A DNA stretch of 64,000 nucleotides from Blautia parvula. GTDB lineage: Bacteria > Bacillota > Clostridia > Lachnospirales > Lachnospiraceae. The stretch spans positions 1,830,001-1,894,000 of the forward strand of contig NZ_CP084061.1 in assembly GCF_020215665.1 (NCBI RefSeq), in the 5' to 3' direction. The notes beneath the pieces were generated by a model. The model searched no databases, had not been told where the DNA came from, and was given only the letters and a program-made list of their open reading frames with translations. Made by a program: the position numbers and the translations under genes. Positions 40,592-61,281 of this stretch are shown here, piece after piece. Numbering within the stretch: the first letter of the stretch is position 1; every line of letters begins with the position of its first letter.

Positions 40592-41962
40592 ATGGCTGAT
40601 GATAAGCCTAAAATTTCACAGGAACAGTCCTCTCCCACCGACCCGCCTGTCAGTCAGGAGGTCAAGGACACTGCTCCGGCTGTAGCTCAACCGGGTGAGG
40701 AAAGGGACAAGGCGGCTGATACAAAATCGTTTGAAACGAAGGAAACAGAATCCGCTGGTTCTAAAAAGCTGGACGATATTGTAAAGCAAGTCAAAGATGC
40801 CCAGCAGAAGCAGACCGAGGCCAGTCTTGCCGCTCCCGACAAAAAACAGTCCGCTTCTATAACTAAGTTATCTGATTTGCCAAAGACCGGACAGAAGAAA
40901 GTTGAGAAACCGGAGCCCACACAAAAGACTGCCGCTGCGAAAAAAGAGACAAAGAAAAAGCCCGCACAGACAGCGAAACCGGGAAAGCCCAAAAGTACGG
41001 CTTCAGCTTCTAAAGGAGCTCCCGGAGCCAGTGTCCCGGCACAATCAGCACCCACGCCCCCGGAGCCACCAAAGGAGGCACCACGCCGGGGAGAGGAACA
41101 GATTGTCTATCTGAAGCTGAATGAGCTCCACGCCTTCAAAAACCACCCCTTCGGCGTGCGTGACGATGAAGAAATGCGGGCCATGGTTTCCAGCGTCAAG
41201 GACAAGGGTGTGACCCAGCCCGCTATCGTCCGGCCCTTGGAGGGCGGCGGCTATGAGATTGTATCCGGCCACCGCCGTCAGAAGGCCAGCGAACTGGCAG
41301 GCTACACGGACATGCCCTGTATCGTCCGCAACCTGACCGATGATGAAGCCATCACGCAGATGGTGGAGGACAACTTAAACCAGCGTGAGGAAATCCTCCC
41401 CAGTGAAAAGGCGAAGGCCCTGAAAATGCAGTTGGAGGCCATCAAACATCAGGGAGCCCGGACTTCGGGCCATGTTGACCCGAAGGAGGCCGGGAAACGC
41501 TCCAATGAGATTGTGGCAGAGCGCAACAAGATGGCGGTCAAACAGGTTCAGCGGTTTATCCGGCTCAATGAGCTGGTTCCCGACTTAATGAAGCTGGTGG
41601 ACGATAAGAAAATCGGCTTCACAACTGCCGTGGAGCTCTCCTATATCAATAAGAAAAACCAGAACTATATCGCTGTCTCCATTGACAGCCAGCAGGCTTC
41701 CCCCACACAGGCACAGGCCAAACGCATGAGGGAGCTTGACGAAAAGAAACTGCTCAACGGTGACGTGATTGACGGAATCATGATGGAGGATAAGAAGGAG
41801 GTAGACAAAGTGATTTTAACAGGTGCAGAGCTTGGGAAATATTTTGGCGCGGAGGCCACCCCGAGGGAAATGAAAGACCAGATCATCAAACTGCTGGACG
41901 ATTGGAAGGGACAGCAGAAGGAACAGGTCAAGCCGGAGAAAAAGGCTGACAAGGAGAAATAA
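40592..41962 (+). CDS. ParB/RepB/Spo0J family DNA-binding protein
   Basis: The start at 40592 has AAAAGGAGG upstream and gives 456 aa. Residues 1-165 are a disordered extension rich in Lys, Pro, Ala and Gln. The ParB N-domain begins near 170 (IVYLKLNELHAF) and includes the conserved GHRRQKA (about 226-232), now known in ParB as part of the CTP-binding region. The box DDEAITQMVEDNLNQRE follows, then a helix-turn-helix region near 270-340. It could partition the circular ICE or, like KorB of RK2, repress ICE genes by binding dispersed sites. One copy of the 23-bp palindrome encodes residues 291-298. No parA is seen. Confidence 0.9.
   Translation: MADDKPKISQEQSSPTDPPVSQEVKDTAPAVAQPGEERDKAADTKSFETKETESAGSKKLDDIVKQVKDAQQKQTEASLAAPDKKQSASITKLSDLPKTGQKKVEKPEPTQKTAAAKKETKKKPAQTAKPGKPKSTASASKGAPGASVPAQSAPTPPEPPKEAPRRGEEQIVYLKLNELHAFKNHPFGVRDDEEMRAMVSSVKDKGVTQPAIVRPLEGGGYEIVSGHRRQKASELAGYTDMPCIVRNLTDDEAITQMVEDNLNQREEILPSEKAKALKMQLEAIKHQGARTSGHVDPKEAGKRSNEIVAERNKMAVKQVQRFIRLNELVPDLMKLVDDKKIGFTTAVELSYINKKNQNYIAVSIDSQQASPTQAQAKRMRELDEKKLLNGDVIDGIMMEDKKEVDKVILTGAELGKYFGAEATPREMKDQIIKLLDDWKGQQKEQVKPEKKADKEK
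41463..41485. repeat. ICE 23-bp palindrome, copy 1 (inside parB-like gene)
   Basis: Arms CTTCGGGCCA and TGACCCGAAG (one change) around TGT. Read in frame as T-S-G-H-V-D-P-K. Confidence 0.75.
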
Positions 41963-41968
41963 GCGGGG

Positions 41969-41991
41969 CTTCGGGCCAGTGTGACCCGAGA
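41969..41991. repeat. ICE 23-bp palindrome, copy 2
   Basis: Arms CTTCGGGCCA and TGACCCGAGA around GTG, 6 bp after the stop of the ParB-like gene. Confidence 0.75.
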
Positions 41992-42029
41992 CTAAGACCG
42001 TGGGGCGCAGCCCCACACCCCGAAGCTCG

Positions 42030-42180
42030 AAGGATATATAATTCCCCGTCGCCGTTTGTTGGATAGCATAGCCGGGAAAATCTGTCAAGGGCCTGCCGCC
42101 GTAGGCGGTGCTTCGCACCCTTGACAGATTTCTCCCGGTTATGCTTTAAGGCGGTCAAGCGACGGGGATATAAATTCCTT
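42030..42180. repeat. Long imperfect inverted repeat, about 150 bp
   Basis: The non-coding gap 41963-42269 holds a nested palindrome. The inner arms 42065-42091 (AGCATAGCCGGGAAAATCTG then TCAAGGG) and 42118-42145 (CCCTTGACAGATTT then CTCCCGGTTATGCT) are nearly complementary. Flanking arms include CCCCGTCGC (42044-42052) and GCGACGGGG (42169-42177), with a GCCGCC/GGCGGT hairpin at the apex. No gene fits. It could be an origin of transfer, a single-strand replication origin, or a structured RNA of the ICE. I recall similar sequence from related ICEs. Confidence 0.7.
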
Positions 42181-42189
42181 TGAGCCGTT

Positions 42190-42209
42190 CCCCTTCCCAC
42201 GGGAAGGGG
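42190..42209. repeat. Perfect hairpin CCCCTTCCC/GGGAAGGGG
   Basis: Two 9-bp arms are separated by only two bases, just right of the long inverted repeat and 60 bp before the next gene. Confidence 0.65.
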
Positions 42210-42269
42210 CGGAGGGGTTGGGCTCTATCCTGCTACTACTCTTTTATAGAAGAAACGGAGGTAAAAACA

Positions 42270-42623
42270 GTGAAACGACCTTTAGCTTATATTACTGCGG
42301 CATGGAACGGGGAGCCGGATATTGACGCCGCCCTTGCCGTCCAATACTGCCGGATTACTTACGAAGCGGGATTCTCACCGATCTGCCCGCTGTTGTATCT
42401 GCCGCTGTTTATCAATGACGCTATCCCCGAGGAACATAAGGACGGGATTGACATGCGCCGGGATATGCTCCGGCGGGCCCGGGTGCTTGTTGTCTGCGGC
42501 GGTGCTGTGGACGAAGATGTAAAAAATGATATTGCCGTGGCCCAGCGGCTGAACATCACGGCAACCACCCTGGACGGGATTGTGACGGTCAACCAGCAGG
42601 GCCGGAACGCAGATGATGTTTGA
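42270..42623 (+). CDS. Small DUF7768-like protein, 117 aa
   Basis: Start is GTG at 42270, with GGAGGT 7 bp upstream; the reading frame extends left through non-coding repeats. The protein begins MKRPLAYITAAWNGEPDIDA and has alternating strands and helices (VLVVCGGAVDEDVKNDIAVAQ) like the Rossmann-like nucleoside deoxyribosyltransferase fold. I recall this family in ICEs as DUF7768. It may process nucleotides or bind a nucleoside ligand, but there is no evidence for a specific reaction. Its end overlaps ardA by 11 bp. Confidence 0.75.
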   Translation: MKRPLAYITAAWNGEPDIDAALAVQYCRITYEAGFSPICPLLYLPLFINDAIPEEHKDGIDMRRDMLRRARVLVVCGGAVDEDVKNDIAVAQRLNITATTLDGIVTVNQQGRNADDV

Positions 42624-43323
42624 AGCCTATCTGACAAATGTGGCCTTATATGCTACCAGAGGCGTTGAGGTCGGGGAGTATTTAAAATTCCCAGCCACCA
42701 CGGAGGAAATACAGGCGCTTCTTTCCCGGATAGAAATAGACGGGAAGAAATATTCAGAAATCTTCATCACGAACTTTGAAAGTGACGTGCTGGGGCTGTC
42801 CGACTATCTTGATGAATATGAGGATATTGACGAGCTGAACCATCTGGCGCATGTTCTGGAGGAAGTACGGGATAAGGGCGAACTGGCAAAGTATGAAGCC
42901 GCCCTTGTTTTGGGAAAACATACGGCAAGCGTAAAAGATTTAATCAATCTCGCTCAAAATCTTGATATTTACAACTTTCAGCCGGGTATAGAAACTTGGG
43001 AGGCTTTAGGCTGTTATTATGCGGACGAGCTCATGGCAATCAATATCCCTTCCGATATACGGGCCTATTTTGACTATGAGGCATACGGACGCGATATCGC
43101 CATCAACGAAGGCGGCTGTTTTGCGCCGGGTGGTTATGTGTCCGCCGCTCCCCTTGTATTTACCGAGTATTATCACGGAATAGGGGATATCCCCGCAGAA
43201 CACCGTGTATTTGCCTATCCCAACGAAACGCCACATTCCATTCTGGAAACCTTGAAACAGTTAAAAGAAGCCCCGCTTGCTCCGAAAAAGGAAAAGACGG
43301 GGCCTTCCCATGAGGAACGGTAA
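42613..43323 (+). CDS. ardA: Antirestriction protein ArdA
   Basis: ArdA mimics B-form DNA to block type I restriction enzymes and help the ICE survive entry into a new host. It has the family opening FEAYLTNVALYATRGVEVGEYLKFPA, then IFITNFESDVLGLSDYLDEYEDIDELNHLA, and the C-terminal YFDYEAYGRDIAINEGG. The net negative charge is typical. At 236 aa it is longer than Tn916 ArdA (166 aa), in part from a C-terminal tail ending in a basic, Pro-rich stretch and E-E-R. There is a tandem ATG at 42613 and 42616. It overlaps the upstream gene. Confidence 0.9.
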   Translation: MMFEAYLTNVALYATRGVEVGEYLKFPATTEEIQALLSRIEIDGKKYSEIFITNFESDVLGLSDYLDEYEDIDELNHLAHVLEEVRDKGELAKYEAALVLGKHTASVKDLINLAQNLDIYNFQPGIETWEALGCYYADELMAINIPSDIRAYFDYEAYGRDIAINEGGCFAPGGYVSAAPLVFTEYYHGIGDIPAEHRVFAYPNETPHSILETLKQLKEAPLAPKKEKTGPSHEER

Positions 43324-43325
43324 GA

Positions 43326-43348
43326 CTTCGGGCCAGCATGGCCCGAGG
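43326..43348. repeat. ICE 23-bp palindrome, copy 3
   Basis: Arms CTTCGGGCCA and TGGCCCGAGG around GCA, 2 bp after the ardA stop and just before AAAGGAGG. Confidence 0.8.
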
Positions 43349-43370
43349 CCGCAAAGGAGGTGCAGGTAAC

Positions 43371-44384
43371 ATTAACTACTATCCAATCAACGAGACAGCG
43401 GCCCGCCGTGCCAAAGAGATGAACAGCTTTTATGATTATCAGGAAGGGAGTGCAACCGCCGAATACCATAGCCTCGTAGATAAGGCCGCCGCTGTGGCAG
43501 AGAAACAGAAAACAAGGGTTGACCCCATGTTTCATGAAAAAATCGACCATCTGCTTGATACCTATGCCCGCAAGCTGGCAGAAAACATGAACCAGCAGTT
43601 TGCGATTGACGCGCGGGTTCCGTCCGTCATGATAGCCGGGCCTGCCAACTTCCCCATCAGGCAGAAGGAAAACCAGAACCGGGCCCGCGACAGCAACATG
43701 GAGGAATGGCGGCATATTCAGGGCCTCCTTGATAAAATCCGCAGTACCGGCATGGGCGGAATCAGCGCAGATGACCCGGAGGCCATCACGAAGCTGAAAG
43801 AGAAACTGGAAGGACTGGAACGCTCCCAACTGATTATGAAGGAAGTCAACATTTATTACCGCAAACACGGGACACTTGACGGCTGTGTGCTTCTCTCCCC
43901 TGACCAGATAGAAAAGCTAAAGGCGGATATGGCCCGGTACAGTTGGCTGAGAAAGCCCTTTGACCTTACGAATACCAGCGCGGAAATCCGCAGGGTAAAG
44001 GAACGAATCGAAGATTTAAGCAAACGGGCCGAAACGGAATTTTCCGGCTGGGAGTTTCAGGGCGGCCATGTGGATATGAACCGGCAGGACAACCGCCTGC
44101 AAATCTTCTTTGACGGGAAACCGGACGCCGATACCCGGACGGAACTCAAAGGGAACGGATTCCGGTGGGCCCCCAGCGTGGGCGCATGGCAGCGACAGCT
44201 TACCGATAACGCAATCTGGGCCGCCGACCGTCTGGATTGTATCCAGCCGCTTTCCGGTGAACGTCCTTCCCAGCTTCAAAAGAAGGCGCAGGAAAAGCCG
44301 TCTATCCTGAAAACCATGCAGGAATATCCAAAGGAGCCGGGACAGGAAAAACCGCTTACGCCTAAGAAGGAGGCCGAACGGTAG
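43371..44384 (+). CDS. Conserved ICE protein, 337 aa (DUF3560-like C-terminus)
   Basis: Function unknown. I recall close relatives in clostridial ICEs that start M-N-Y-Y-P-I-N-E. Here the matching codon is ATT at 43371, 10 bp after AAAGGAGG, so an ATT start is likely. The only in-frame ATG upstream (43338) lies inside a palindrome copy, without a ribosome binding site. The body is helical (RRAKEMNSFYDYQEGSATAEY...), and the C-terminal part, NRLQIFFDGKPDADTRTELK and GFRWAPSVGAWQRQLTDNA, resembles the DUF3560 region. It ends with a basic tail containing K-P-S-I-L-K-T-M, 27 residues from the C-terminus counting from the Ser. Confidence 0.75.
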   Translation: MNYYPINETAARRAKEMNSFYDYQEGSATAEYHSLVDKAAAVAEKQKTRVDPMFHEKIDHLLDTYARKLAENMNQQFAIDARVPSVMIAGPANFPIRQKENQNRARDSNMEEWRHIQGLLDKIRSTGMGGISADDPEAITKLKEKLEGLERSQLIMKEVNIYYRKHGTLDGCVLLSPDQIEKLKADMARYSWLRKPFDLTNTSAEIRRVKERIEDLSKRAETEFSGWEFQGGHVDMNRQDNRLQIFFDGKPDADTRTELKGNGFRWAPSVGAWQRQLTDNAIWAADRLDCIQPLSGERPSQLQKKAQEKPSILKTMQEYPKEPGQEKPLTPKKEAER

Positions 44385-44385
44385 G

Positions 44386-44408
44386 CTTCGGGCCATGCTG
44401 GCCCGAGG
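44386..44408. repeat. ICE 23-bp palindrome, copy 4
   Basis: Arms CTTCGGGCCA and TGGCCCGAGG around TGC, 1 bp after the previous stop. Confidence 0.8.
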
Positions 44409-44423
44409 TTATGAAGGGAGTGA

Positions 44424-45200
44424 TTGATTATCAGTAAGACCAGACAAAAGCGGCTGGCGGAGCAGAAGGAAGTAAAGGAACTGCTGGCCGTGCTGAAGGA
44501 AAACAATTTTTCCAGCGCAAAGGATCTCATGGCCGCCATCGGCCATGTGTCAGACTTGGAGGAACAGCTTTCCAGTGCGGTTCAGGAGCTTACCGCCATG
44601 CGGCAGGAATTGCAGGAAATGAAGCAATCGCCGTTAAAGGCCGCCCTGCAAAGGTCGGTTCAGACCTTGGAGGCGAAAGTTTCCCAGTTGAGGGTGCAGA
44701 TTGACGCGCTGAAAGAAATCATCATAGAGGGCTGTAAACAGGCCCTTGCCGATTTTAAGCAGCGAGGAACGGCGGCCTTAGACGGCGTGGCCCGCTTCTT
44801 CCATCTGCGGGAAGGTCTGGAAGGGGTAAAGGAAACCATTCAGGCGGGGATTGCCACAGACGAAAAGGCCCTTGCGAAAATCGAAGCCGTTTCAGCCGAA
44901 TACCACGAGGCGGGCAGGCATTTGAAAAATGTAGGCCGGGCCCTGATGGGGAAGGAGGCCGTATCAAAGGCAAAAGGCCCGGGCAAGCTGGCAAAAACAG
45001 TTGCGGCACCTTACCGGGCTGAACGCTCCAGCCTGCTCTCCATGCAGAAAAGCGTGGAAAAAGCCCTCGCCCGGATAGAACGGCTGGAACAGGCGGCAGA
45101 AAAAAAGCCGTCCATCTTAGACACCATGCGGACGCAGAATGAAAAGATACGGGCGGAACCGGCAAAAGAGGCCCCGCCCTCCAAATATGCCGAGCGGTAG
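44424..45200 (+). CDS. Coiled-coil ICE protein, about 258 aa (DUF6674-like)
   Basis: Start codon uncertain. TTG at 44424 is only 3 bp from GGGAG, while ATT at 44427 and ATC at 44430 are better spaced; no ATG is near. The protein is almost entirely helical, with a predicted coiled coil from about residue 45 to 105 (LEEQLSSAVQELTAMRQELQEM) and a second helical part to 230. The tail carries K-P-S-I-L-D-T-M and ends A-E-R. I recall similar ICE proteins as DUF6674. It might organise the transfer machinery, but that is inference. Confidence 0.72.
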   Translation: MIISKTRQKRLAEQKEVKELLAVLKENNFSSAKDLMAAIGHVSDLEEQLSSAVQELTAMRQELQEMKQSPLKAALQRSVQTLEAKVSQLRVQIDALKEIIIEGCKQALADFKQRGTAALDGVARFFHLREGLEGVKETIQAGIATDEKALAKIEAVSAEYHEAGRHLKNVGRALMGKEAVSKAKGPGKLAKTVAAPYRAERSSLLSMQKSVEKALARIERLEQAAEKKPSILDTMRTQNEKIRAEPAKEAPPSKYAER

Positions 45201-45201
45201 A

Positions 45202-45224
45202 CCTCGGGCCACATTGGCCCGAGA
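45202..45224. repeat. ICE 23-bp palindrome, copy 5
   Basis: Arms CCTCGGGCCA and TGGCCCGAGA around CAT, 1 bp after the previous stop. Confidence 0.8.
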
Positions 45225-45291
45225 TTTTCCGTCTCCCGTAAAGATAAGAGGCCCCCCGGAGTTTATGGGAGCCTGACAGGAAGGAGGTATT

Positions 45292-45762
45292 ATGCAGGAC
45301 GAAGTAAACCAAAAAACGGTTGCCCTCTCAATCCGGGCAACAAAGCTCACAGGCCGGGTGCTGGCCTCCGCAATATGGAAGATTTTAGAGGAAGGGAAAA
45401 AGCGTCACCAGAAAGCGCTGACCCCGCAAGGCCGCCAAAGCGTGAAAAAGCTGATGAACCATTACGGGGCCAAAAACTCCATGCCCCTCGTGGGAGCGCC
45501 CCGGCAGTTTGACCGCATAGCAAAGGAATTTCATGTAGACTATGCGTTCCATAAGGTCAGCCCCGGCCACTACCTGCTGTTTTTCAAAGCGGGACAGGCG
45601 GACGCCATGACGGCGGCGTTCCAGAAATACAGTGACAAGGTGCTGAATAAGGGGAAAGACAAGGCTTCTATCCTCGGCCAGCTACGGAACCTTTCAGAGC
45701 ATATCAAGTCCCGGCCGAAGGAGCGCCAGAAAACCAGAGAGGCGGTGAAGGAAGAACGGTGA
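45292..45762 (+). CDS. PcfB family protein (DUF3801)
   Basis: PcfB in pCF10 and related systems binds the coupling protein and the relaxosome. This 156-aa protein has the conserved opening VNQKTVALSIRATKLTGRVLA and the segment FDRIAKEFHVDYAFHK, followed by YLLFFKAGQADAMTAAFQKY. The tail contains K-A-S-I-L-G-Q-L and ends E-E-R. GGAGG lies before the ATG. It overlaps the virD4 start by 4 bp, matching the pcfB-pcfC pairing. Confidence 0.88.
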   Translation: MQDEVNQKTVALSIRATKLTGRVLASAIWKILEEGKKRHQKALTPQGRQSVKKLMNHYGAKNSMPLVGAPRQFDRIAKEFHVDYAFHKVSPGHYLLFFKAGQADAMTAAFQKYSDKVLNKGKDKASILGQLRNLSEHIKSRPKERQKTREAVKEER

Positions 45763-47582: not shown

Positions 47583-47605
47583 CCTCGGGCCACATTGGCC
47601 CGAAG
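47583..47605. repeat. ICE 23-bp palindrome, copy 6
   Basis: Arms CCTCGGGCCA and TGGCCCGAAG around CAT, directly abutting the virD4 stop. Confidence 0.8.
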
Positions 47606-47674
47606 CGCCGCCGTTATGGGCGGCTATTTTGTTACCCGAAAACCGATTCAATCTAAGAAAATGGAGGAAACCAC

Positions 47675-47887: not shown

Positions 47888-47913
47888 AGCGTTCCCATTT
47901 AAAGGAGTGATAT

Positions 47914-48780: not shown

Positions 48781-48793
48781 ACCGGCAGAAGGA

Positions 48794-48816
48794 CTTCGGG
48801 CCACCCTGGCCCGAGG
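48794..48816. repeat. ICE 23-bp palindrome, copy 7
   Basis: Arms CTTCGGGCCA and TGGCCCGAGG around CCC, 13 bp after the previous stop and just before GGAAGGAGG. Confidence 0.8.
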
Positions 48817-48831
48817 CGGGAAGGAGGACAT

Positions 48832-49497: not shown

Positions 49498-49520
49498 CTT
49501 CGGGCCATGGTGGCCCGAAG
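49498..49520. repeat. ICE 23-bp palindrome, copy 8
   Basis: Arms CTTCGGGCCA and TGGCCCGAAG around TGG, directly abutting the stop of the SpoVG-domain gene. Confidence 0.8.
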
Positions 49521-50163: not shown

Positions 50164-50186
50164 CTTCGGGCCACCATGGCCCGAAG
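50164..50186. repeat. ICE 23-bp palindrome, copy 9
   Basis: Arms CTTCGGGCCA and TGGCCCGAAG around CCA, directly abutting the stop and 8 bp before the next AAAGGAGG. Confidence 0.8.
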
Positions 50187-53191: not shown

Positions 53192-54982
53192 ATGAAACCA
53201 ACATCTGAAATTTTAGAGCGTATTGAAAGGTGTTCCAGCGAACACAAAGACGGCGTATTCACAAGGCTATACAGATATTTACTCCGTGAAGATATTTACT
53301 ACGCCGCCTATCAGAAACTTTATGCAAACAAAGGCGCAACAACACAGGGTATCGACGACGATACCGCAGACGGTTTCAGTGACTTCTATGTAAAAGAGTT
53401 AATCCAGTCACTAAAGGACGGAACCTACAAGGCTAACCCTGTAAGACGTGGGTATATTCCAAAGAAAAACGGAAAACTCCGTCCGCTGGGTATCCCGTCT
53501 TTCCGTGACAAGCTCCTGCAAGAAGTTGTCAGAATGATTTTGGAAGCTATCTATGAACCTGTCTTTGACAGTCACTCCCACGGTTTCAGACCGGGCAAAA
53601 GCTGTCATACCGCACTCCGTCAGATTTCTTCTGACTTCACAGGCGTGGTTTGGTTTATCGAGGGTGATATTCAGGGTTGTTTTGATAACATCAATCACGA
53701 AAAACTGATTGAGATTTTGAGCAGGAAAATCAAAGACAGTCGTTTTCTGAACATCATTCGCCAGTTTTTGAAAGCTGGGTATATCGAGAATTGGAAGTAT
53801 AACGCCACTTACAGCGGTTCTCCGCAGGGTGGTATCTGTTCACCGATACTTGCAAATATCTATCTGAATGAGCTGGACAAGAAGTTTCGGGAAATCGCAG
53901 AACGCTTTGATAAACCGAGGTCCGCATATCAGACACCGGAATATCATACGGCAAGCAAAGAATTAAAAAGGCTGTCCTACTGGATTGACCATACCGATAA
54001 TGAAGCGGAAAGACAAGAACTGATTGACCAGCATAAAGCGCAGAAGAAAGCTATGAGAAATCTGCCCTGCAAACCCGCCGACAATAAGAAATTTACTTTT
54101 GTCCGCTATGCGGACGACTGGCTGGCAGGTGTGTGCGGCACAAAAGCGGAATGTGAAGAATTAAAAACCGAAATCGCTGAATTTCTAAGCACAGAGTTGA
54201 AATTGACCTTGAGTGAAGAAAAGACGCTGATAACGCACAGCTCCGAAAAAGTCCGTTTCATTGGCTATGATATTTGCGTCCGCAGAAATCAGGAGGTCAA
54301 AGGTCACAGAATGAAAAACGGGACGTGGAGAAAATCCCGTACCCTGCACATGAAAGTTGCCCTTACTATTCCCCATACGGAAAAGATTGAGAAATTTATG
54401 TTTGCAAAGAAAGTCATTCGCCAAAAGGAGAATGGGGAGTTCCAGCCGATACACAGAGCCGGACTTCTCAACCTTGCGGATTATGAGATTGTGGAGCAGT
54501 ACAATGCCGAAGCAAGAGGACTATGCAACTATTACAATCTGGCCTGTGACTATCACACGCTGGACTACTTCTGCTATCTCATGGAGTATAGCTGCTTAAA
54601 GACGATTGCCAACAAGCATAAAACCAGTATCCGCAAAATCATCCGCCAGCACAAAGACGGGAAAACGTGGTCTGTTCCTTATGAAACCAAAGCTGGGACA
54701 AAACGTGTACGCCCTGTTAAAATCGCAGATTGTAAGCGTGGCGAAGCGAGTGACATCATCTATCAGAGAAAGAAATTTAGCTGGAAAACCACTATCAGAC
54801 AACGGCTTAATGCCAGAGTTTGTGAACTATGTGGGTGTAAAGAAGCCGACTTGTACGAGGTTCACGTTATACGGAACCTAAACGAGTTGGGGAATTCTGA
54901 TTGGGAAACCGTGATGAAAAAGAAGCGGCGGAAAACACTTGTTGTTTGTAGCAAGTGCCATGAAAGAATACACAAACACTAA
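53192..54982 (+). CDS. ltrA: Group II intron maturase/reverse transcriptase LtrA
   Basis: The protein is 596 aa. Residues 40-370 are the reverse transcriptase, with RGYIPKKNGKLRPLGIPSFRDKLLQ, the palm motif FVRYADDW (YADD, about 305-312) and GSPQGGICSPILANIYL. The maturase X domain (about 400-510) is followed by a C-terminal HNH-type endonuclease (CELCGCKEADLYEVHVI... CSKCHERIHKH). All three activities look intact, so the intron may still be able to move. GGGAGGAG precedes the ATG. Confidence 0.95.
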   Translation: MKPTSEILERIERCSSEHKDGVFTRLYRYLLREDIYYAAYQKLYANKGATTQGIDDDTADGFSDFYVKELIQSLKDGTYKANPVRRGYIPKKNGKLRPLGIPSFRDKLLQEVVRMILEAIYEPVFDSHSHGFRPGKSCHTALRQISSDFTGVVWFIEGDIQGCFDNINHEKLIEILSRKIKDSRFLNIIRQFLKAGYIENWKYNATYSGSPQGGICSPILANIYLNELDKKFREIAERFDKPRSAYQTPEYHTASKELKRLSYWIDHTDNEAERQELIDQHKAQKKAMRNLPCKPADNKKFTFVRYADDWLAGVCGTKAECEELKTEIAEFLSTELKLTLSEEKTLITHSSEKVRFIGYDICVRRNQEVKGHRMKNGTWRKSRTLHMKVALTIPHTEKIEKFMFAKKVIRQKENGEFQPIHRAGLLNLADYEIVEQYNAEARGLCNYYNLACDYHTLDYFCYLMEYSCLKTIANKHKTSIRKIIRQHKDGKTWSVPYETKAGTKRVRPVKIADCKRGEASDIIYQRKKFSWKTTIRQRLNARVCELCGCKEADLYEVHVIRNLNELGNSDWETVMKKKRRKTLVVCSKCHERIHKH

Positions 54983-55005
54983 TCAATACGTCAATTACTA
55001 ATGGG

Positions 55006-55039
55006 GAGCCGGATACTTCGAGAGGAGTAAGTCCGGTTC
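55006..55039 (+). ncRNA. Group II intron domain V
   Basis: A 34-nt hairpin, GAGCCGGATACTTC then a GAGA loop region and GTCCGGTTC at the end, has the fixed length and base pattern of domain V, the catalytic core. Confidence 0.8.
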
Positions 55040-55099
55040 CGAGGGAGGGTGTAGGAAACCTGCCGCCAACGGCGGCAAGACGCCTTTACCCTACCCTAC

Positions 55100-55378
55100 G
55101 ATTTTCTGGCAAGCCCCGAGATTGAGAATATTTTCGAGAACTCGGATTTCCTCGTACTGCTCGCACAGGCACAGGGCGACCGGCAGATCATCGCAAAACA
55201 GCTTGGTATCAGTCCGCACCAGCTTTCCTATGTGACCCACACCAATTCCGGTGAGGGCCTTTTGTTTTTCGGGAACGTCACAATCCCCTTCGTAGACCAC
55301 TTCCCGCAGAATACGGAGCTCTATGCAATCATGACAACCCGCCCGGAGGATAAGAAGAATGAGCCAAAACAGGAATGA
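55100..55378 (+). CDS. virB4: VirB4-type conjugation ATPase, 3' exon
   Basis: These 92 codons continue VirB4 after the intron: DFLASPEIENIFENSDFLVL, then QAQGDRQIIAKQLGIS, NSGEGLLFFGNVTIPFVDHF, and a C-terminal KKNEPKQE. When joined to the 5' exon the NVK-DFLASPE junction matches the conserved TQNVxDLL motif of VirB4 ATPases. It overlaps the start of the Mom-like gene by 20 bp. Confidence 0.9.
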   Translation, partial: DFLASPEIENIFENSDFLVLLAQAQGDRQIIAKQLGISPHQLSYVTHTNSGEGLLFFGNVTIPFVDHFPQNTELYAIMTTRPEDKKNEPKQE

Positions 55379-56168
55379 CACCACTTCGGGCCAACGTGGC
55401 CCGAAGCTCACGGTACGGGAAATCCCCAAAGAGCAGGCCATCGGCTTTATCCGCCGCTACCATTATTCCAAAATCATGCCCCGGCTGAATAAGCACTATC
55501 TGGGCTTTTACACTGGAAACCGACTTGCGGGCGTGGTGGCGCTGGGCTGGGGAACCCAGCCGCTCCAAAGCATACGGAAGATGTTCCCCCGCCACAGGCT
55601 CCAATCCGGCGACTATCTGGAAATCGGGAAGATGTGTTTTCTCCCTGAAATGAACGGGAACCAGTGTTTTGGGAGCCGGGTGCTCTCCCAGCTTGTAAAA
55701 TGGCTGAAAAATAATACAGACTGCCTGTTCCTCTACACGCTGGCGGACGGCATTATGGGGAAATGCGGCTATGTGTATCAGGCCGCGAACTTCCGGTACA
55801 TCGGGAGCTTTCCCACCAGCGTCTACCGCTGTACGGCCACCGGGGAGAAAATCCACCCACGGAGCGCAAGGCTCTTACTGGAAGAAAACGCCGCCCTTGA
55901 CGGGGTGGAAAGACGGTTCTGGCTGACCCATGGCTACTGTGAATACAAGGGGATTGAAAAAATCAACGGCCTCATGTTCCGTTATCTCTACCCGCTGAAC
56001 AGGCAGGCAAAAAAAATCCTGAACGCCTACCCGGAGTACCGGGGGCTCCCAAACCCGAAGGATAAGGATTTGAAATTCACCATGCGAACCGCCCCGGGCG
56101 TATACGCCCCAATCCCGCCGCCGTTATTTAACCGTGATGTATGCCAATTCAACACACAGAAATGTTGA
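55359..56168 (+). CDS. Mom-like DNA modification protein (GNAT-related), 269 aa
   Basis: The body resembles a family I recall from ICEs as Mom-like, after the phage Mu protein that makes methylcarbamoyl-adenine to protect DNA from restriction. Key segments are REIPKEQAIGFIRRYHYSK, LGFYTGNRLAGVVALGWGTQP, YLEIGKMCFLPEMNGNQCFGSRVLSQLVKW and YTLADGIMGKCGYVYQAANF. These match a GNAT-like fold, with the His-Tyr-Ser and Gly-rich regions in place. It overlaps the VirB4 3' exon. Residues 9-16 are encoded by a palindrome copy. Modification activity is inferred from family only. Confidence 0.65.
   Translation: MSQNRNDTTSGQRGPKLTVREIPKEQAIGFIRRYHYSKIMPRLNKHYLGFYTGNRLAGVVALGWGTQPLQSIRKMFPRHRLQSGDYLEIGKMCFLPEMNGNQCFGSRVLSQLVKWLKNNTDCLFLYTLADGIMGKCGYVYQAANFRYIGSFPTSVYRCTATGEKIHPRSARLLLEENAALDGVERRFWLTHGYCEYKGIEKINGLMFRYLYPLNRQAKKILNAYPEYRGLPNPKDKDLKFTMRTAPGVYAPIPPPLFNRDVCQFNTQKC
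55384..55406. repeat. ICE 23-bp palindrome, copy 10 (inside Mom-like gene)
   Basis: Arms CTTCGGGCCA and TGGCCCGAAG around ACG, 5 bp after the virB4 stop. Read in frame as T-S-G-Q-R-G-P-K at residues 9-16. Confidence 0.8.
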
Positions 56169-56205
56169 GCTGGCTTTTTTTGTTCCGGGAAAGGAGGAAT
56201 GACCT

Positions 56206-58176
56206 ATGGGAAAGGAACCAAAGAAAGTCAGGCCAAAACAGCCGCCGCCGGATACCTTCACCTCGGGCCAACATGGCCCGAAGCAGGAAACCAGCCCGCC
56301 GCCGGATTCCGCCCCTTCCGGCCGCCTGCGTTTTGAGGAAGGGGACACGCCGCCGCAGGACGGGGCCACCTCGGGCCAGCATGGCCCGAAGCCCTCCGGG
56401 AAGTTCCGGCAGGATACGGAGCGGGCCCGCCCCTCCGACCATATGCGGCGGGAGGAAAATGCGGACGGAGACGGAGGGCAGGAACCCCATGACAAAGAGG
56501 CCGGGCCTGACCGGGCCGGTAAGAAACGTACTGATGGTGAGAAATATGCCGATGGGGAGAAACGGGCTGACGGCAAGGAACGCTCTGACGGCAGGAAACC
56601 GGACAAGACGGAGAAGGCACAGGAAAAAGCGGATAAGGCCGGACGGAAACTGGAATCGGCCCGGGAAAAGCTGGCCTCACAGAAGCCGCCCAAACAGCCG
56701 GGACTGGCAAAGAAGGCTGTCCGGGGTGTGCGGGCGGAGGTATGGTTTTACACCCACAACAAAATACACGAGATTGAGCATGAGAACGTAGGCGTGGAAG
56801 GAGCCCATAAATCCGAGCTTGTGGCAGAGGCAGGAACCCGTAAGCTCGCCCGGTTTGCCAGACGCCGCTACCGTGAGCACCCGGCCCGCCGGGTGGCGAA
56901 ATGGGAACGAAAGGAGCTAGCGGCACGGGCCAATCTGGATTTTCAGAAGATGGCAAAGGAACACCCGGAGCTTGCCAGCAACCCGCTCTCCCGCATGGCA
57001 CAGAAATGGAAACTGAAACGCCAGTATGCCAGACAGGCAAGACAGGCCGCAAAGCAGGGGGCACGGGCGGCGAAGAAAACAGCCGCCACAGCCGGAACCA
57101 TTACGAAACGGGCGGTTCAGGCGGCGGCCCGCCACCCGGTATTTATCCTGATTATCGTGGTACTGTTCCTGCTGTTTTATATCCTGTCAGCGTTTTCCTC
57201 CCTTATCCCCATGCTGGGGAGCGGCCTTGCAAACGCCATATCCGGCACCTCCTACGCCTCCGCTGACAGCGACCTTTTAGGGGCGGACGAGGACTATACC
57301 GCTCTGGAAAATGACCTGAAACAGAAGATTGCCAATATCGAGCACACCCACAGCGGCTATGACGAATACCGCTACAACGTAGATGAAATCGGCCACAACC
57401 CCTATGAGCTTGCCTCCTACCTGTCGGCCAAATACCACAGCTATACCCGGTCAGGGATACAGGGCGAACTTGGGGAGGTCTTTGAAGCACAGTACGAGCT
57501 GACGCTGACCGAGGAAGTGGAAATCCGCTACCGCACAGAAACCAGCACAGACGCGGACGGCAACGAGACGAGCGAGGAAGTCCCTTATGAATACTATATC
57601 CTCCATGTGACCTTAAAAAACCGCACTCTCCCCGCCGTGGTGAATACCCGGCTTACCATGGAGCAGAAGGAGATTTATTCCGTCATGCAGGAATTAAAGG
57701 GCAACAAGCCCCACCTGTGGGAAGGCATTTACACGGGAGGCGGCACAGGGACGGACCCCGGCTACCAGATACCCGGGGAGGCCCTGTCCGACCCGTCCTT
57801 CGCGGCCCTGATTGGGGAGGCGGAGAAATACTTGGGCTATCCCTATGTATGGGGCGGTTCCAGCCCGTCCACCTCCTTTGACTGCTCCGGCTTCGTCTGC
57901 TGGGTATTTTCCAACAGCGGCGTCCATAACCTGCCCCGCACCACGGCGCAGGGCATTTACAACCAGTGCGCCCGTGTCTCCCCCGCTGACGCAAAGCCCG
58001 GCGATATCATCTTTTTTACTGGCACCTATGACAGCGGCGTGCCAGTCTCCCACGTAGGAATTTATGTAGGCAACAATATGATGATCCACTGTGGGAACCC
58101 AATTCAATACGCCAGTATCAGCACGTCCTACTGGACGCAGCATTTCTACGCATTTGGCCGTTTATCAGGAAATTGA
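56206..58176 (+). CDS. NlpC/P60 cell-wall hydrolase of the transfer apparatus (CD1108 type)
   Basis: At 656 aa, residues 1-300 are basic, Pro/Lys/Arg-rich and disordered, and include two palindrome-encoded S-G-Q-H-G-P-K peptides. A membrane helix lies at about 305-325 (HPVFILIIVVLFLLFYILSAF). The outer part ends in an NlpC/P60 domain (about 530-655) with catalytic Cys in TSFDCSGFVCW, His in VSHVGIYVGNN, and a further His in MIHCGNP. It likely opens peptidoglycan for the conjugation channel. GGAGGAATGACCT precedes the start. The N-terminal part differs in composition from the catalytic half. Confidence 0.9.
   Translation: MGKEPKKVRPKQPPPDTFTSGQHGPKQETSPPPDSAPSGRLRFEEGDTPPQDGATSGQHGPKPSGKFRQDTERARPSDHMRREENADGDGGQEPHDKEAGPDRAGKKRTDGEKYADGEKRADGKERSDGRKPDKTEKAQEKADKAGRKLESAREKLASQKPPKQPGLAKKAVRGVRAEVWFYTHNKIHEIEHENVGVEGAHKSELVAEAGTRKLARFARRRYREHPARRVAKWERKELAARANLDFQKMAKEHPELASNPLSRMAQKWKLKRQYARQARQAAKQGARAAKKTAATAGTITKRAVQAAARHPVFILIIVVLFLLFYILSAFSSLIPMLGSGLANAISGTSYASADSDLLGADEDYTALENDLKQKIANIEHTHSGYDEYRYNVDEIGHNPYELASYLSAKYHSYTRSGIQGELGEVFEAQYELTLTEEVEIRYRTETSTDADGNETSEEVPYEYYILHVTLKNRTLPAVVNTRLTMEQKEIYSVMQELKGNKPHLWEGIYTGGGTGTDPGYQIPGEALSDPSFAALIGEAEKYLGYPYVWGGSSPSTSFDCSGFVCWVFSNSGVHNLPRTTAQGIYNQCARVSPADAKPGDIIFFTGTYDSGVPVSHVGIYVGNNMMIHCGNPIQYASISTSYWTQHFYAFGRLSGN
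56261..56283. repeat. ICE 23-bp palindrome, copy 11 (inside NlpC/P60 gene)
   Basis: Arms CCTCGGGCCA and TGGCCCGAAG around ACA. Read in frame as T-S-G-Q-H-G-P-K at residues 19-26. Confidence 0.8.
56369..56391. repeat. ICE 23-bp palindrome, copy 12 (inside NlpC/P60 gene)
   Basis: Arms CCTCGGGCCA and TGGCCCGAAG around GCA. Read in frame as T-S-G-Q-H-G-P-K at residues 55-62. Confidence 0.8.
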
Positions 58177-58202
58177 CCGTCATAAACAGAAAGGAGATTC
58201 GC

Positions 58203-58472
58203 ATGAACAGACTTGAAAAAATCGAGAAGGATTTGGAGAAAGCCCGGGAGAAGGCCGCCGAGTGCCAGGCCAAAGTCCGGGAACTGGAAAAACAGAAACA
58301 GGAGGAGGAAAACAGCCAGATCGTGCAGGCGGTGCGCTCCATGAAGCTGACCCCTGCCGAGCTCCTGGCTTTCCTAAACAACCCGAAGGACACCCCTGCC
58401 GCTTCGGGCCAGACTGGCCCGAAGTCCGCTGACGGAAAAGAAAAGGAGGACGAAGCCCATGAAGAAGCCTAA
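58203..58472 (+). CDS. DUF4315 family protein
   Basis: This 89-aa protein has the DUF4315 opening MNRLEKIEKDLEKAREKAAECQAKVRELEKQK, a long charged helix, then LTPAELLAFLNNP. Such proteins lie between the NlpC/P60 gene and DUF4366 in clostridial ICEs; the function is unknown. The start at 58203 has AAAGGAG upstream. Residues 67-74 come from a palindrome copy. It overlaps the DUF4366 gene by 14 bp. Confidence 0.88.
   Translation: MNRLEKIEKDLEKAREKAAECQAKVRELEKQKQEEENSQIVQAVRSMKLTPAELLAFLNNPKDTPAASGQTGPKSADGKEKEDEAHEEA
58402..58424. repeat. ICE 23-bp palindrome, copy 13 (inside DUF4315 gene)
   Basis: Arms CTTCGGGCCA and TGGCCCGAAG around GAC. Read in frame as A-S-G-Q-T-G-P-K. Confidence 0.8.
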
Positions 58473-59172
58473 CCTTCACCGATTGTCGGCGCTGGCCGCC
58501 TGCCTGCTGTGCGGTACTTATTTTACAATCCCCGCCTACGCCCAGAGCAGTGAACCGCAGGCCGAAACCACATCGGCTGAAACTATCCCAGTTGAAACCG
58601 TGACCCCGGAGGAACCGGCGGAGCCCAATCCCTTCACCCCGGACGGAACCGGAACCGTGGTGGATAAGGCCACCGACAAGGACGGGAAGGAATTTTACAC
58701 CATCACCACCCCGGACGAGAATATCTTCTTTCTGGTGATTGATAACCAGAAGTCCAGCGAAAATGTCTATTTCCTGAACGCCGTCACGGAAACAGACCTC
58801 CTTCCCCTTGCGGAAAAAGACGGTGAAGGAACGGCTGTGGAGCCGGAAACCACACCCGCACCGAAAACGGAACCGGAAACGGAAACGCCCACGGAGGAAC
58901 CAGAACAGCCGGAGCCAGCGCCCAAAGAGGATAAGGCAGACAACGGCCTGTTCTCCCTCCTTCTGGTTGCGGCGGTAGTCCTGATTGGCGGCGGGGCCGG
59001 ATATTACTTCAAAATCTATAAGCCCAAACATCAGGCCCCGGACTTGGAGGACGATTATTGCGAGTATGAGGAAGAAGCCGAGGAACCGGAAGAATCCGAA
59101 GAAGATGATACCCCACCGTGGAACGAAGAAGAACCGGAAGCAGGCGGGGAGGACAAGGAGGACAGGAAATGA
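58459..59172 (+). CDS. DUF4366 domain protein (CD1107 family)
   Basis: The 237-aa protein has a signal peptide (KPNLHRLSALAACLLCGTYFTIPAYAQS), an outer domain with GTGTVVDKATDKDGKEFYTI typical of DUF4366, a Pro/Glu/Thr-rich spacer, a membrane helix (about 155-178) and an acidic cytoplasmic tail (EDDYCEYEEEAEEPEE...). It is a single-pass surface protein of the conjugation apparatus; the exact role is unknown. It overlaps both neighbours. Confidence 0.88.
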   Translation: MKKPNLHRLSALAACLLCGTYFTIPAYAQSSEPQAETTSAETIPVETVTPEEPAEPNPFTPDGTGTVVDKATDKDGKEFYTITTPDENIFFLVIDNQKSSENVYFLNAVTETDLLPLAEKDGEGTAVEPETTPAPKTEPETETPTEEPEQPEPAPKEDKADNGLFSLLLVAAVVLIGGGAGYYFKIYKPKHQAPDLEDDYCEYEEEAEEPEESEEDDTPPWNEEEPEAGGEDKEDRK

Positions 59173-59360
59173 ATTTCACAGACAGCCCTTTTGAACAGAT
59201 GATGAAGGAGGTTCCCCGTCCGGGCAGGGGCAGTTCCGGTCCCTGCGCCGGGTGCCGTTATGCTAAAGAGTGCAAAAACCAGAAAGGACGCTGCCGGAAG
59301 AAGTTCCGCGCCCTGCTTGTGGAGCCGCAGGCTTCGGGCCAACGTGGCCCGAAGTCCTGA
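59169..59360 (+). CDS. Small Cys-rich ICE protein, 63 aa
   Basis: MNFTDSPFEQMMKEVPRPGRG is followed by a Cys-rich CAGCRYAKECKNQKGRC, which could bind zinc. The last ten residues are the palindrome-encoded peptide plus one Ser. Both ends overlap neighbours as ATGA, indicating translational coupling. No named family is recognised. Confidence 0.75.
   Translation: MNFTDSPFEQMMKEVPRPGRGSSGPCAGCRYAKECKNQKGRCRKKFRALLVEPQASGQRGPKS
59332..59354. repeat. ICE 23-bp palindrome, copy 14 (end of Cys-rich gene)
   Basis: Arms CTTCGGGCCA and TGGCCCGAAG around ACG. Read in frame as A-S-G-Q-R-G-P-K, one codon before the stop. Confidence 0.8.
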
Positions 59361-59758
59361 TGGCCCGGGAGCTGACCCGTGACGAGAGGAAGAAAATCCG
59401 GGGGCTTGTCACGGGCATGTGCGCCAACTATGACAGCGAAACCGGCCTGTGCCTCCCGCTGGACTGCCCCTGCTATATGCTGAATAAATGGTGGACAGGC
59501 GCTTACTGCCGCTACTTCCGTCGCTCCGTCCTGCCCCTCAATCCGGCATTGGAAACCACCTTATTGGAGAAAGGGCCCGCCCCCGGGCTCCGACCCTGCA
59601 CGGTCTGCGGCAGGCTCTTTTTGCCAATGGGGCGGCAAGCCTACTGCTCCGAAGCCTGCAAGGCCGAGGGGAACCGCAAAAAGAGCCGGGAACGTATGCG
59701 GAAAATGAGAAGGAAAACGGAGGGCCCCTGTTACGTTTTGCCCTCCGGGAAAGCCTGA
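59360..59758 (+). CDS. Cysteine-rich VLP protein
   Basis: The start at 59360 overlaps the previous stop (ATGA) and gives 132 aa. It has the pattern of the family I recall as cysteine-rich VLP: LTRDERKKIRGLVTGMCANYD, LPLDCPCYMLNKWWTGAYCRYF, and a C-terminal zinc-finger-like CTVCGRLFLPMGRQAYCSEAC followed by a basic tail (RKKSRERMRKMRRK). Common in clostridial ICEs; the function is unknown, though nucleic-acid binding is plausible. Confidence 0.85.
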   Translation: MARELTRDERKKIRGLVTGMCANYDSETGLCLPLDCPCYMLNKWWTGAYCRYFRRSVLPLNPALETTLLEKGPAPGLRPCTVCGRLFLPMGRQAYCSEACKAEGNRKKSRERMRKMRRKTEGPCYVLPSGKA

Positions 59759-59782
59759 TTTTGCAGGATTTCTAAGAGGCAG

Positions 59783-59824
59783 AACCGGGGCCGTGATAAT
59801 CTGATACCTTTGTCCCCGGTTTTG
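59783..59824 (+). terminator. Possible terminator after the Cys-rich VLP gene
   Basis: AACCGGGG (59783-59790) pairs with CCCCGGTT (59814-59821), followed by a short T-rich stretch. It is weak and has a 23-nt loop. Confidence 0.5.
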
Positions 59825-59849
59825 CTGTTTATTTCGTAACATCATCAGA

Positions 59850-59872
59850 CTTCAGGCCATGCTGGCCCGAGG
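59850..59872. repeat. ICE 23-bp palindrome, copy 15
   Basis: Arms CTTCAGGCCA (one change) and TGGCCCGAGG around TGC, 18 bp before the next start. Confidence 0.75.
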
Positions 59873-59890
59873 TCGGAAAGGAGAATCTGC

Positions 59891-60664
59891 ATGGAAGATT
59901 TAAAAGGGTATCAAATCCAGAAGGAGGCCGTCTTTGAGAATGGCCGGGGCTTCGCGCTGGCCCATAACCCGGAGGCGCAGTCCCCCTTTGTAATCTGGCA
60001 TTTCACGGTTATGCCGGAAGGGGAACGCAATTATTATGGCTATACGGCCTGCCGTGGTATCCTGCCGCCGGAAAAAGAATTTGAGAGGTTCCTGTTCGCC
60101 TACGACTATGTTTACAAGGTTCCGCAACTGCCGGAGGGCAAAAGGCCGAGGGGAACGGATTATTACCGGTATTACACCCGCTATCCCCTTGACGCGAATG
60201 CCTTCCCAAAATCAAAGGAGCTGGGGCTGTTGGAGATTGCCCCTTACGATAACCGGACGATGGTGGAAGGCAATTCCATACGGACGTGGGGAGAACTGAT
60301 TTATACTAAGCCGCTGCCGGAAAAGCTGGTGGCTGATTATGAGCTCAAACCCTCCCGCCTGAATCCTGACGTAAGAAGGAAAATGGAGGAGCAGACGCAG
60401 GCGCTTGGCAAATGGGAGGACAGCCGCCATTTCGGTGATAAGCGGCGGCTGACATGGTTCCATCCGGATTTTGGGACGTATATCCTGAAACAGCCCCTTT
60501 CCCCAGAACAGCTTTCCGAACGGATTGAGGCCATGGAGGAATTGGAGGCAGAGCGGAAAGAAAAACGGTCAATCACCGCCCAGCTCCGCAAAGAGACGAA
60601 TCAGGAAAAGGAAAACAGGGAACCGCCCGCGAAAAAGGGCGGCCACTCCCACGAGGACAGATAG
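59891..60664 (+). CDS. Conserved ICE protein, 257 aa, unknown function
   Basis: I do not recognise a family. The first 190 residues look folded, with many aromatic residues (VIWHFTVMPEGERNYYGYTACRG, FLFAYDYVYKV, YYRYYTRYPLDANAF). The rest is helical and charged, with a tail holding R-S-I-T-A-Q-L and ending E-D-R. GGAGAA precedes the ATG. It follows palindrome copy 15 and a possible terminator, so it may start a new transcript leading to mobC. Confidence 0.75.
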   Translation: MEDLKGYQIQKEAVFENGRGFALAHNPEAQSPFVIWHFTVMPEGERNYYGYTACRGILPPEKEFERFLFAYDYVYKVPQLPEGKRPRGTDYYRYYTRYPLDANAFPKSKELGLLEIAPYDNRTMVEGNSIRTWGELIYTKPLPEKLVADYELKPSRLNPDVRRKMEEQTQALGKWEDSRHFGDKRRLTWFHPDFGTYILKQPLSPEQLSERIEAMEELEAERKEKRSITAQLRKETNQEKENREPPAKKGGHSHEDR

Positions 60665-60675
60665 GAGGACGAACC

Positions 60676-60861
60676 ATGCACGAAAAAGACAATTATTTAA
60701 AAAATGCAGAGCTTTCCACAGAGCAGAACTGCAACATGATTGACGGGATTCCCAATAATACGCCGCTCCCTCCGGCTCCCCCGGAACCGGACAGAAAGCC
60801 GCTGGATAAAGTAAAGGAGCCACCCTCCCGCAAACGGAGCCGGGAACGTGAGGACAGATGA
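60676..60861 (+). CDS. Short DUF4316-like protein, 61 aa
   Basis: NYLKNAELSTEQNCNMIDGIPNN is the segment I recall from DUF4316 proteins of clostridial ICEs, where it is usually part of larger proteins. Here only this segment and a Pro/Arg-rich tail (SRKRSREREDR) remain. AGGAGG precedes the ATG. It ends overlapping mobC as ATGA. It may be a cut-down remnant. Confidence 0.72.
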   Translation: MHEKDNYLKNAELSTEQNCNMIDGIPNNTPLPPAPPEPDRKPLDKVKEPPSRKRSREREDR

Positions 60862-61199
60862 AAGGCCGCAGGCGCGATATCCACCTTCATGTGATGGTGA
60901 CGGCAGAGGAACTGGCAAGAATAAGAGAACGCATGGACGAGGCCGGTATCACCAACGCCGGGGCCTATGTGCGCAAGATGGCCTTAAACGGCTATATCCT
61001 CCATGTTGACCTCTCCCCCGTAAAGGAGCTGGTTTCCCTTCAGCGGCGGTGCGCCAACAATCTCAATCAGGTGGCCGTCCATGCCAACATGTACGGCGTA
61101 TACCCGGAGGAAATCGCAGGGCTCCAGCGTGATTATGAAACGCTGTGGGGGCAGGTTTCCGATGTGCTGAAAGAGCTTTCCGAGCTGGTGGCAAAGTAA
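60858..61199 (+). CDS. mobC: MobC-type relaxosome accessory protein
   Basis: The 113-aa protein has an N-terminal ribbon-helix-helix-like part (RRRDIHLHVMVTAEELARIRERMDEAGITNAGAYVRKMALNGY) and the C-terminal MobC helix (SLQRRCANNLNQVAVHANMYG). It assists the relaxase at oriT. The relaxase gene normally follows directly; here it does not, because the AT-rich PHP-ATPase gene comes next. It overlaps the upstream gene (ATGA). Confidence 0.9.
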   Translation: MKGRRRDIHLHVMVTAEELARIRERMDEAGITNAGAYVRKMALNGYILHVDLSPVKELVSLQRRCANNLNQVAVHANMYGVYPEEIAGLQRDYETLWGQVSDVLKELSELVAK

Positions 61200-61205
61200 C
61201 AGACG

Positions 61206-61255
61206 GGGCGGCGGCCATGGACTGACAGTTATGGCCTGCCGCCCTTTCTTTTTTT
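61206..61255 (+). terminator. Terminator after mobC
   Basis: GGGCGGCGGCCAT (61206-61218) pairs with ATGGCCTGCCGCCC (61231-61244, one bulge) and is followed by TTTCTTTTTTT. Confidence 0.85.
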
Positions 61256-61258
61256 GAG

Positions 61259-61281
61259 CTTCGGGCCAATATGTCCCGAAG
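61259..61281. repeat. ICE 23-bp palindrome, copy 16
   Basis: Arms CTTCGGGCCA and TGTCCCGAAG (one change) around ATA, at the border between GC-rich ICE sequence and the AT-rich gene. Confidence 0.8.

Follow-up and report, generated by a model that had tools for sequence, protein, structure and literature searches.

The integrative and conjugative element (ICE) in a 64,000-nucleotide stretch of Blautia parvula DNA (NZ_CP084061.1, positions 1,830,001 to 1,894,000; the window) carries an array of 23-bp palindromes that we interpret, with a probability of about 0.86, as parS-like binding (loading) sites of two-fold symmetry for the element's own ParB-family protein. The palindromes follow one pattern, are restricted to the ICE in this genome, keep their places in related ICEs and vary together with the helix-turn-helix (HTH) of ParB, and we infer that the protein physically binds them. 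HTH residues 164, 175, 176 and 179 (numbered as in short ParBs) appear to specify half-site bases 7–10, which would amount to a protein–DNA code readable from sequence. A preliminary description of the array had preferred a protein-binding DNA site to an RNA stem and had named the ICE ParB-like protein as a candidate binder. The readable site/HTH code points to that protein, and co-variation, together with the lack of a G-U bias in the arms, favours a DNA site.

The array and its counterparts in related ICEs

All 16 copies listed in the preliminary description were located in the window, with arms CTTCGGGCCA and TGGCCCGAAG around a free 3-bp centre; the mean number of matches in 100 shuffled windows was 0.00. 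Allowing up to two mismatches, we searched all 6,247,046 bases of the genome and obtained 20 matching places, each within C1:1871463-1905524, that is, inside the ICE, while the reversed control pattern gave no match in this genome at the same threshold. The copies are thus confined to the element and are neither spread through the host nor expected by chance. Arm changes, previously recorded for copies 1, 2, 15 and 16, occur in others too, 11 of the 16 window copies having one or more arm bases that differ from the consensus. A scan with up to six mismatches over the 60 kb around the ICE raised the number of copies to 22, six of them beyond the window end, a density of 22 copies in about 37 kb. 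This length, and with it the likely limits of the ICE, is deduced from the parts of an NMT1-like gene flanking both ends: the left edge adjoins a truncated NMT1-like gene, and the right edge is a recombinase open reading frame (ORF) fused to the remaining NMT1-like domain.

Most copies are intergenic (15 of 22, compared with 12.6% of start positions), and the remaining seven lie inside genes. Ten of the 22 start 0–15 nt after a stop codon; within the window, eight start 0–13 nt after stops (at 6, 2, 1, 1, 0, 13, 0 and 0 nt), the same count as reported before. For these placement counts, three ORFs with their first ATG inside a palindrome had their starts set by hand downstream. The widest gaps between palindromes fall at a cargo block after 66215 and at a group II intron stretch after 50164, and the cargo block, the intron and all host DNA outside the ICE contained no copy.

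The survey of dispersal covered one bacterial family. Among 397 genomes of this family (that of B. parvula included), 49 contained at least one match with up to two mismatches and 12 contained at least four, which in one of the 12 (G283) were spread over three contigs; the reversed control pattern matched in 3 of the 397. Eight relatives (G028, G119, G038, G127, G144, G148, G222 and G284) share a gene set and order over the stretches covered: parB, DUF7768, ardA, DUF6674, pcfB, virD4, trbL, spoVG, DUF7007, prgI, virB4, P60, DUF4315, CD1107 and relaxase. Matching copies lie after parB, ardA, virD4, trbL, DUF7007 and relaxase, and within the P60, DUF4315 and Cys-rich VLP genes. Many gene junctions were thus matched in related ICEs, a comparison that the preliminary description had suggested, with some places empty in individual elements. 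Sites often occupy shared junctions even though their sequence differs between subclades.

Of the 22 positions in the window ICE, 17 could be paired with sites in G222 and 12 with sites in G038. Over these pairs, identity (G222/G038) was 0.94/0.93 in the arms, 0.37/0.14 in the centre and 0.65/0.46-0.49 in the flanks; the sites were located by motif, which inflates arm identity, and paired by hand. Solitary copies also occur in L056 (CTTCGGGACATTTTGTCCCGAAG) and L047, both near Cys-rich VLP genes. The palindromic repeats at L063:1990-2670, about 66 nt apart, form a CRISPR-like array unrelated to the palindrome.

Embedded sites, ParB clades and the site/HTH code

Relatives of the ICE ParB gave matches in at least 166 of the 397 genomes, all from one bacterial family, and scans of viral_contigs returned few, namely 7 and 2. 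The loci analysed comprised 54 regions hand-picked among the matches listed, loci met earlier, and the best 80 matches, which gave 79 loci. Loci nested in or repeating others were removed by hand or by identical linker DNA, and protein alignments were made without the internal-stop genes L227, L039, L040, L081, L031 and L129. Foldseek with a short relative, L062, gave best matches to ParB and Noc, followed by KorB.

The position that site 1 occupies in the window parB holds a palindrome of another sequence in many ParB homologues with 38–50% identity. Short relatives, mostly beside parA, contain one such palindrome inside parB, just ahead of the HTH codons, in a constant frame, AACTT-NNNNN-CAASTTG-N'N'N'N'N'-AAGTT, in which the outer AACTT and the inner CA show little variation. 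A filter for palindromes (pairing at 7 or more of 10 positions, C at 11, G at 17, encoded protein shorter than 420 aa) retained 119 of 151 distinct linker DNAs, yielding 87 distinct 27-mers and 34 different 5-mers at half-site positions 6–10. At these positions, arm pairing reached 0.93, a figure that the filter itself raises, compared with 0.41 when right arms were shuffled (largest of 2000 shuffles, 0.50). Tested against 500 synonymous recodings, the palindrome stood out (P≤0.01) in 40 of the 79 ParB genes, a set that includes long types; at least 9 of 10 positions were paired in 50 of the 79. The idea that one genome avoids two ParBs of equal specificity was dropped, since L105 and L119 of G046 have the same site. 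The long-type L139 was among the short rows in the arm-pairing, identity-pair, information and random-column analyses, and was excluded from the four-residue prediction described below. Four loci (L127, L134, L129 and L061) have two short parB homologues each, at least one of which carries a palindrome; these could possibly form hetero-pairs.

The long ParBs form one clade, with a support of 100/100 in a 19-row tree. With one ParA query (E≤1e-8), ParA was found upstream of 121 of 137 short ParB rows, a count that may still include nested or repeated loci, versus 0 of 25 long ParBs; the same search gave no parA match in the 60 kb around the window ICE (L005-L007). An N-terminal SxD[DE][LI]F motif, which we guess serves ParA, is present in 88 of 141 short ParBs and in none of 27 long ones. 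A GHRR motif occurs in 20 of the 27 long ParBs, the remaining seven being unmatched by the pattern used. No second palindrome copy was found for 105 of 107 short-ParB loci in 1.6 Mb, compared with 3–22 sites in long-ParB stretches.

The window parB is the first gene of the ICE; to judge from its translation, the true start may be Met16, at 40592. The AlphaFold model of the protein has low overall confidence (mean pLDDT, the predicted local distance difference test, 62) and contains helices at 319-326 and 331-352; by alignment numbering, its key HTH residues are N320, V331, K332 and Q335. The N-terminal 180 residues are mostly below pLDDT 50, with one helix at 73-93, and the long N-terminal extension is accordingly predicted to be mostly disordered. 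In the model of a short ParB (mean pLDDT 80), the site-encoding loop (151-161) has pLDDT below 50 and the HTH helices span 163-169 and 175-184.

Comparison of ParB pairs that are 75–95% identical located the residues that vary with the site. Residues 175, 176 and 179 differ in 78%, 68% and 86% of 1090 pairs with different sites versus 0–1% of 153 pairs with the same site; mean identity is 0.86 in each set. Outside residues 143-179, and leaving the linker aside, the largest contrast listed was 0.10. Residue 176 tracks the inner dinucleotide: K or R goes with G at position 9 (26 proteins), N, S or T with C at position 10 (65) and D with G at position 10 (9). This rule, whose classes were derived from the data they describe, holds without exception in these 100 of 111 proteins; the other 11 carry CA, TT or TC. 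For positions 7 and 8, residue 164 was the most informative, and its codon overlaps the palindrome in none of the 111 genes. Residues 164 and 175 have the same spacing as Q162 and R173 of Caulobacter ParB, reported as DNA contacts in passages of PMC7383237, and are probably equivalent to them.

Using the four residues (164, 175, 176 and 179), picked after the pair-contrast and information analyses, we predicted the four middle bases across the 111 rows with an agreement of 0.87 (baseline 0.39) when relatives with at least 70% identity were excluded, and of 0.82 (baseline 0.37) with those at 60% or more excluded. By comparison, 100 random sets of four variable columns gave a mean of 0.39 and a maximum of 0.48.

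Dispersed multi-copy sites were compared with the same code. Group B long-ParB ICEs carry a multi-copy palindrome of the CTTTGGGACA type and groups C and C2 palindromes of the CTTCGGGACA or CTTCTGGACA type, and 13 of 13 group B/C parB genes have one more copy in their 5' part. L132, a distant element encoding ParA, ParB, RepA_N, a relaxase and a T2SSE-type ATPase (L132:3393-9116), has five dispersed ACTTGTGGTCA sites. The HTH strings are VKQVQR (A), YKQVQR (B), YKKVMR (C and C2) and AKTVQR (L132); long-group residues were entered by hand for the look-up and random-column analyses. Looked up among the 111 short ParBs, group A gave GGGC (4 of 4 residues matched, one protein) and group B GGGA (4 of 4, two proteins), both as observed, and the results for C2 (TGGA) and L132 (TGGT) also agreed with the sites. 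In total, among five multi-copy groups outside the 111-row set, the window ICE being one of them, four were called exactly and one with 3 of 4 bases.

Role of the array and alternative explanations

The short systems suggest a possible origin. In these, a ParA–ParB pair has one site written in the parB frame, in a predicted disordered loop ahead of the HTH, so that site and reader would travel together. In the long-ParB clade the upstream parA is missing, the N-terminal extension is long and many copies of the site are spread along the element. A ParAB system with an in-frame site would have shed its motor while retaining the DNA-reading protein and increasing the number of sites, an order of events that we infer. 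ParB, presumed to be a CTP-gated clamp as in Spo0J, Noc and KorB, would load at the palindromes and, once loaded, form a nucleoprotein coat over the integrated ICE, by which the element would be organised or silenced.

For such a coat, a weaker proposal than binding itself, we would put the odds slightly below even. The ParB-bound sites might instead act as a distributed centromere that segregates the excised, replicating circle, driven by a ParA, helped by that of the host, or moved by another motor. This role, which is compatible with ParB binding, seems unlikely, though not markedly so: a ParAB pair with a single embedded site is the usual arrangement in short relatives, and L132 combines ParA, ParB, RepA_N and a relaxase with five dispersed sites, but the single ParA query found no parA near the window ICE or upstream of long ParBs, which also lack the SxD[DE][LI]F motif. 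By analogy with the KorB and BisD precedents described below, we tentatively rank the coat first and segregation second.

The preliminary description had also offered an mRNA-processing element and a selfish repeat. That the palindrome acts in mRNA, as a 10-bp stem behind stop codons by which cistrons of the transfer operon are processed, stabilised or insulated, is improbable. The placement of 10 copies just after stops would suit it, and the best of four folded copies reached -20.1 kcal/mol (z -4.65), with z of -2.90, -1.58 and -1.75 for the other three. However, arm mismatches show no wobble bias of the kind expected in mRNA: 15 oriented ICE stretches, many of which are related, gave 62 G-U cells and 94 A-C cells, and the embedded parB sites gave 12 and 20. 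The arm sequence also follows the ParB HTH, seven copies lie within genes, and the only Rfam match at gathering score in window positions 38000-64000 is the group II intron.

It is similarly improbable that another ICE protein binds the palindrome and that ParB co-varies through linkage or common descent. Site and HTH codons are neighbours in short parB genes and could recombine as one cassette, and the contrast between same-site and different-site pairs spans residues from about 143 to 179. Against this, distant ParBs (below 65% identity) with the same site have an HTH identity of 0.44 versus 0.24 for those with different sites (79 and 3257 pairs; largest control shift in 200 sets, 0.065; L139 row included). 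No palindrome adjoins the HTH codons in the 13 group B/C parB genes, in L132 or in three of the four A-prime parB genes. Linkage is a poor explanation because most dispersed sites lie far from the HTH codons, which often have no adjoining palindrome, and these scattered sites obey the same code; the spacing of residues 164 and 175, like that of the presumed Caulobacter equivalents, also argues for ParB. Finally, a selfish or passively spreading palindrome with no ICE protein partner, the least probable alternative, fits the many near-identical copies limited to one element and the step from one copy in short-ParB loci to many in long-ParB ICEs, but would leave unexplained why arms are kept at matching junctions where flanks have fallen to about half identity, why their sequence changes between clades in step with the HTH, and why the cargo block, the intron and the rest of the host are free of it.

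Binding by ParB thus accounts best for the array, and several observations weigh against it. At 23-27 bp the palindrome exceeds the 16 bp of parS and OB, the sites of characterised ParBs. DNA binding by itself does not demand the placement after stops, which would suit an RNA-level role. In the A-prime ICEs (G038, G127 and G144; L029-L034) the centre triplet is oriented on the operon strand (ACT in 40 of 52, AGT in 8 of 52), which is unexpected since the site is symmetric. The embedded palindrome is missing in some short ParBs (for example, L127, L134 and L132). The look-up for group C gave TGGA, one base off the observed GGGA, and the best look-ups for C, C2 and L132 matched just 3 of 4 residues. 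The NxQR (P) motif is one residue longer in 20 of 27 long ParBs, with seven unmatched by the pattern; with this motif altered, a normal CTP cycle is not to be assumed.

The reading of the palindromes as ParB sites can be set beside known systems. As in ParB-parS (Spo0J, Caulobacter ParB), a protein with a ParB_N domain and an HTH would read a palindrome, and one parS lies inside B. subtilis spo0J just as ICE site 1 lies inside parB. The window ICE differs in having no ParA found and 22 sites in about 37 kb, and in a 23-27-bp site, hypervariable in its middle but conserved at the outer AACTT and the inner CA, in place of the 16 bp of parS. Noc-binding sites are dispersed on the host chromosome. 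Noc resembles the ICE protein as an orphan ParB relative with its own palindrome, although its sites are chromosomal; the ICE protein would recognise another sequence and bears a long extension at its N terminus. According to passages of PMC7383237, Noc/ParB specificity is switched by a handful of residues in the HTH region (173, 179, 184 and 201).

KorB of RK2, the nearest precedent for a ParB-family clamp whose operators lie on the element that encodes it, is described in passages of PMC11790492 as a sliding clamp and long-range repressor with operators on its own plasmid. The likeness is in a ParB-family protein encoded by the element and many copies of one site over that element; OB, however, is 16 bp and upstream of promoters, while the ICE sites are often at gene ends in a same-strand gene run. 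BisD of ICEclc, likewise a ParB-domain protein encoded by an ICE, controls ICE genes and, with BisC, activates promoters (passages of PMC7423338), and orphan ParBs are described as common and frequently associated with mobile elements (passages of PMC12704722). BisD, unlike the ICE protein, belongs to Gamma- and Betaproteobacteria, and these passages of PMC7423338 and PMC12704722 describe no dispersed palindrome array.

Among the papers listed in searches of the open-access literature by sequence string and by topic, we recognised no earlier description of the palindromes; in excerpts of a polyvalent-protein survey covering Tn1549-like elements, 'palindrom' does not occur and 'parS' appears once, in a reference. 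The most novel interpretation, which we consider somewhat more likely than not, is that the whole ICE is kept without ParA under a single self-encoded coat of ParB clamps, loaded at some 20 sites that are re-specified in place with three or four HTH residues. Behind this array would stand a widespread family of ParAB pairs that carry the centromere within the reading frame of parB, the HTH and the hypervariable middle of the site together making up a readable code of more than 30 natural, possibly orthogonal specificities. A large ParB family on conjugative elements of Bacillota is thereby assigned a likely target site. The code is directly testable, and the many natural ParB–site pairs lend themselves to studying how partition and incompatibility specificities diversify, perhaps also to orthogonal DNA labelling. 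They raise the evolutionary question of how about 20 sites acquire a new specificity where they stand as the protein that reads them changes, and make silencing or packaging of ICEs by sliding clamps testable.

Coordinates and neighbouring genes

Table. The ICE parB gene and palindrome sites, in window positions unless marked C1.
Feature	Position	Strand	Remarks
ICE parB-like gene, long type	40547..41962	+	471 aa from first ATG; ParB_N PF02195 E=1.8e-19
Site 1	41463..41485	.	Inside parB, codons 306-313, between ParB_N and HTH
Site 2	41969..41991	.	6 nt past parB stop
Site 3	43326..43348	.	2 nt past ardA stop
Site 4	44386..44408	.	1 nt past orf348 stop
Site 5	45202..45224	.	1 nt past stop of DUF6674 gene
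Site 6	47583..47605	.	Flush with virD4 stop
Site 7	48794..48816	.	13 nt past trbL-like stop
Site 8	49498..49520	.	Flush with stop of spoVG-domain gene
Site 9	50164..50186	.	Flush with DUF7007 gene stop, ahead of prgI
Site 10	55384..55406	.	Close to 5' end of Mom-family ORF
Site 11	56261..56283	.	NlpC/P60 gene, 5' part
Site 12	56369..56391	.	NlpC/P60 gene, 5' part
Site 13	58402..58424	.	DUF4315 gene, 3' part
Site 14	59332..59354	.	Cys-rich VLP gene, 5' part
Site 15	59850..59872	.	Ahead of DarA_C-domain gene
Site 16	61259..61281	.	Interval between nikA-like gene and SMC-like ORF
Six sites past window end	C1:1894277, 1894687, 1896215, 1904287, 1904855, 1905502		Scan with ≤6 mismatches

Downstream of the virB4-like ORF, the palindrome-free group II intron comprises a reverse transcriptase/maturase ORF (53192-54982) and an Rfam RF00029 match (55004-55099). 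A 966-aa ORF running from window position 61333 past the window end (L006:5333-8233) is also palindrome-free; its weak PHP and SMC/AAA-like matches fall below Pfam curated cut-offs, and it is possibly a defence gene. The cargo block (L006:12348-15997), likewise free of palindromes, encodes a lantibiotic immunity MutG-type permease, a response regulator and a histidine kinase. The Mom-family ORF at 55359-56168 (PF25680, E 9.6e-56) is matched in the nearest relative ICE, G148, over its last 18 residues only.

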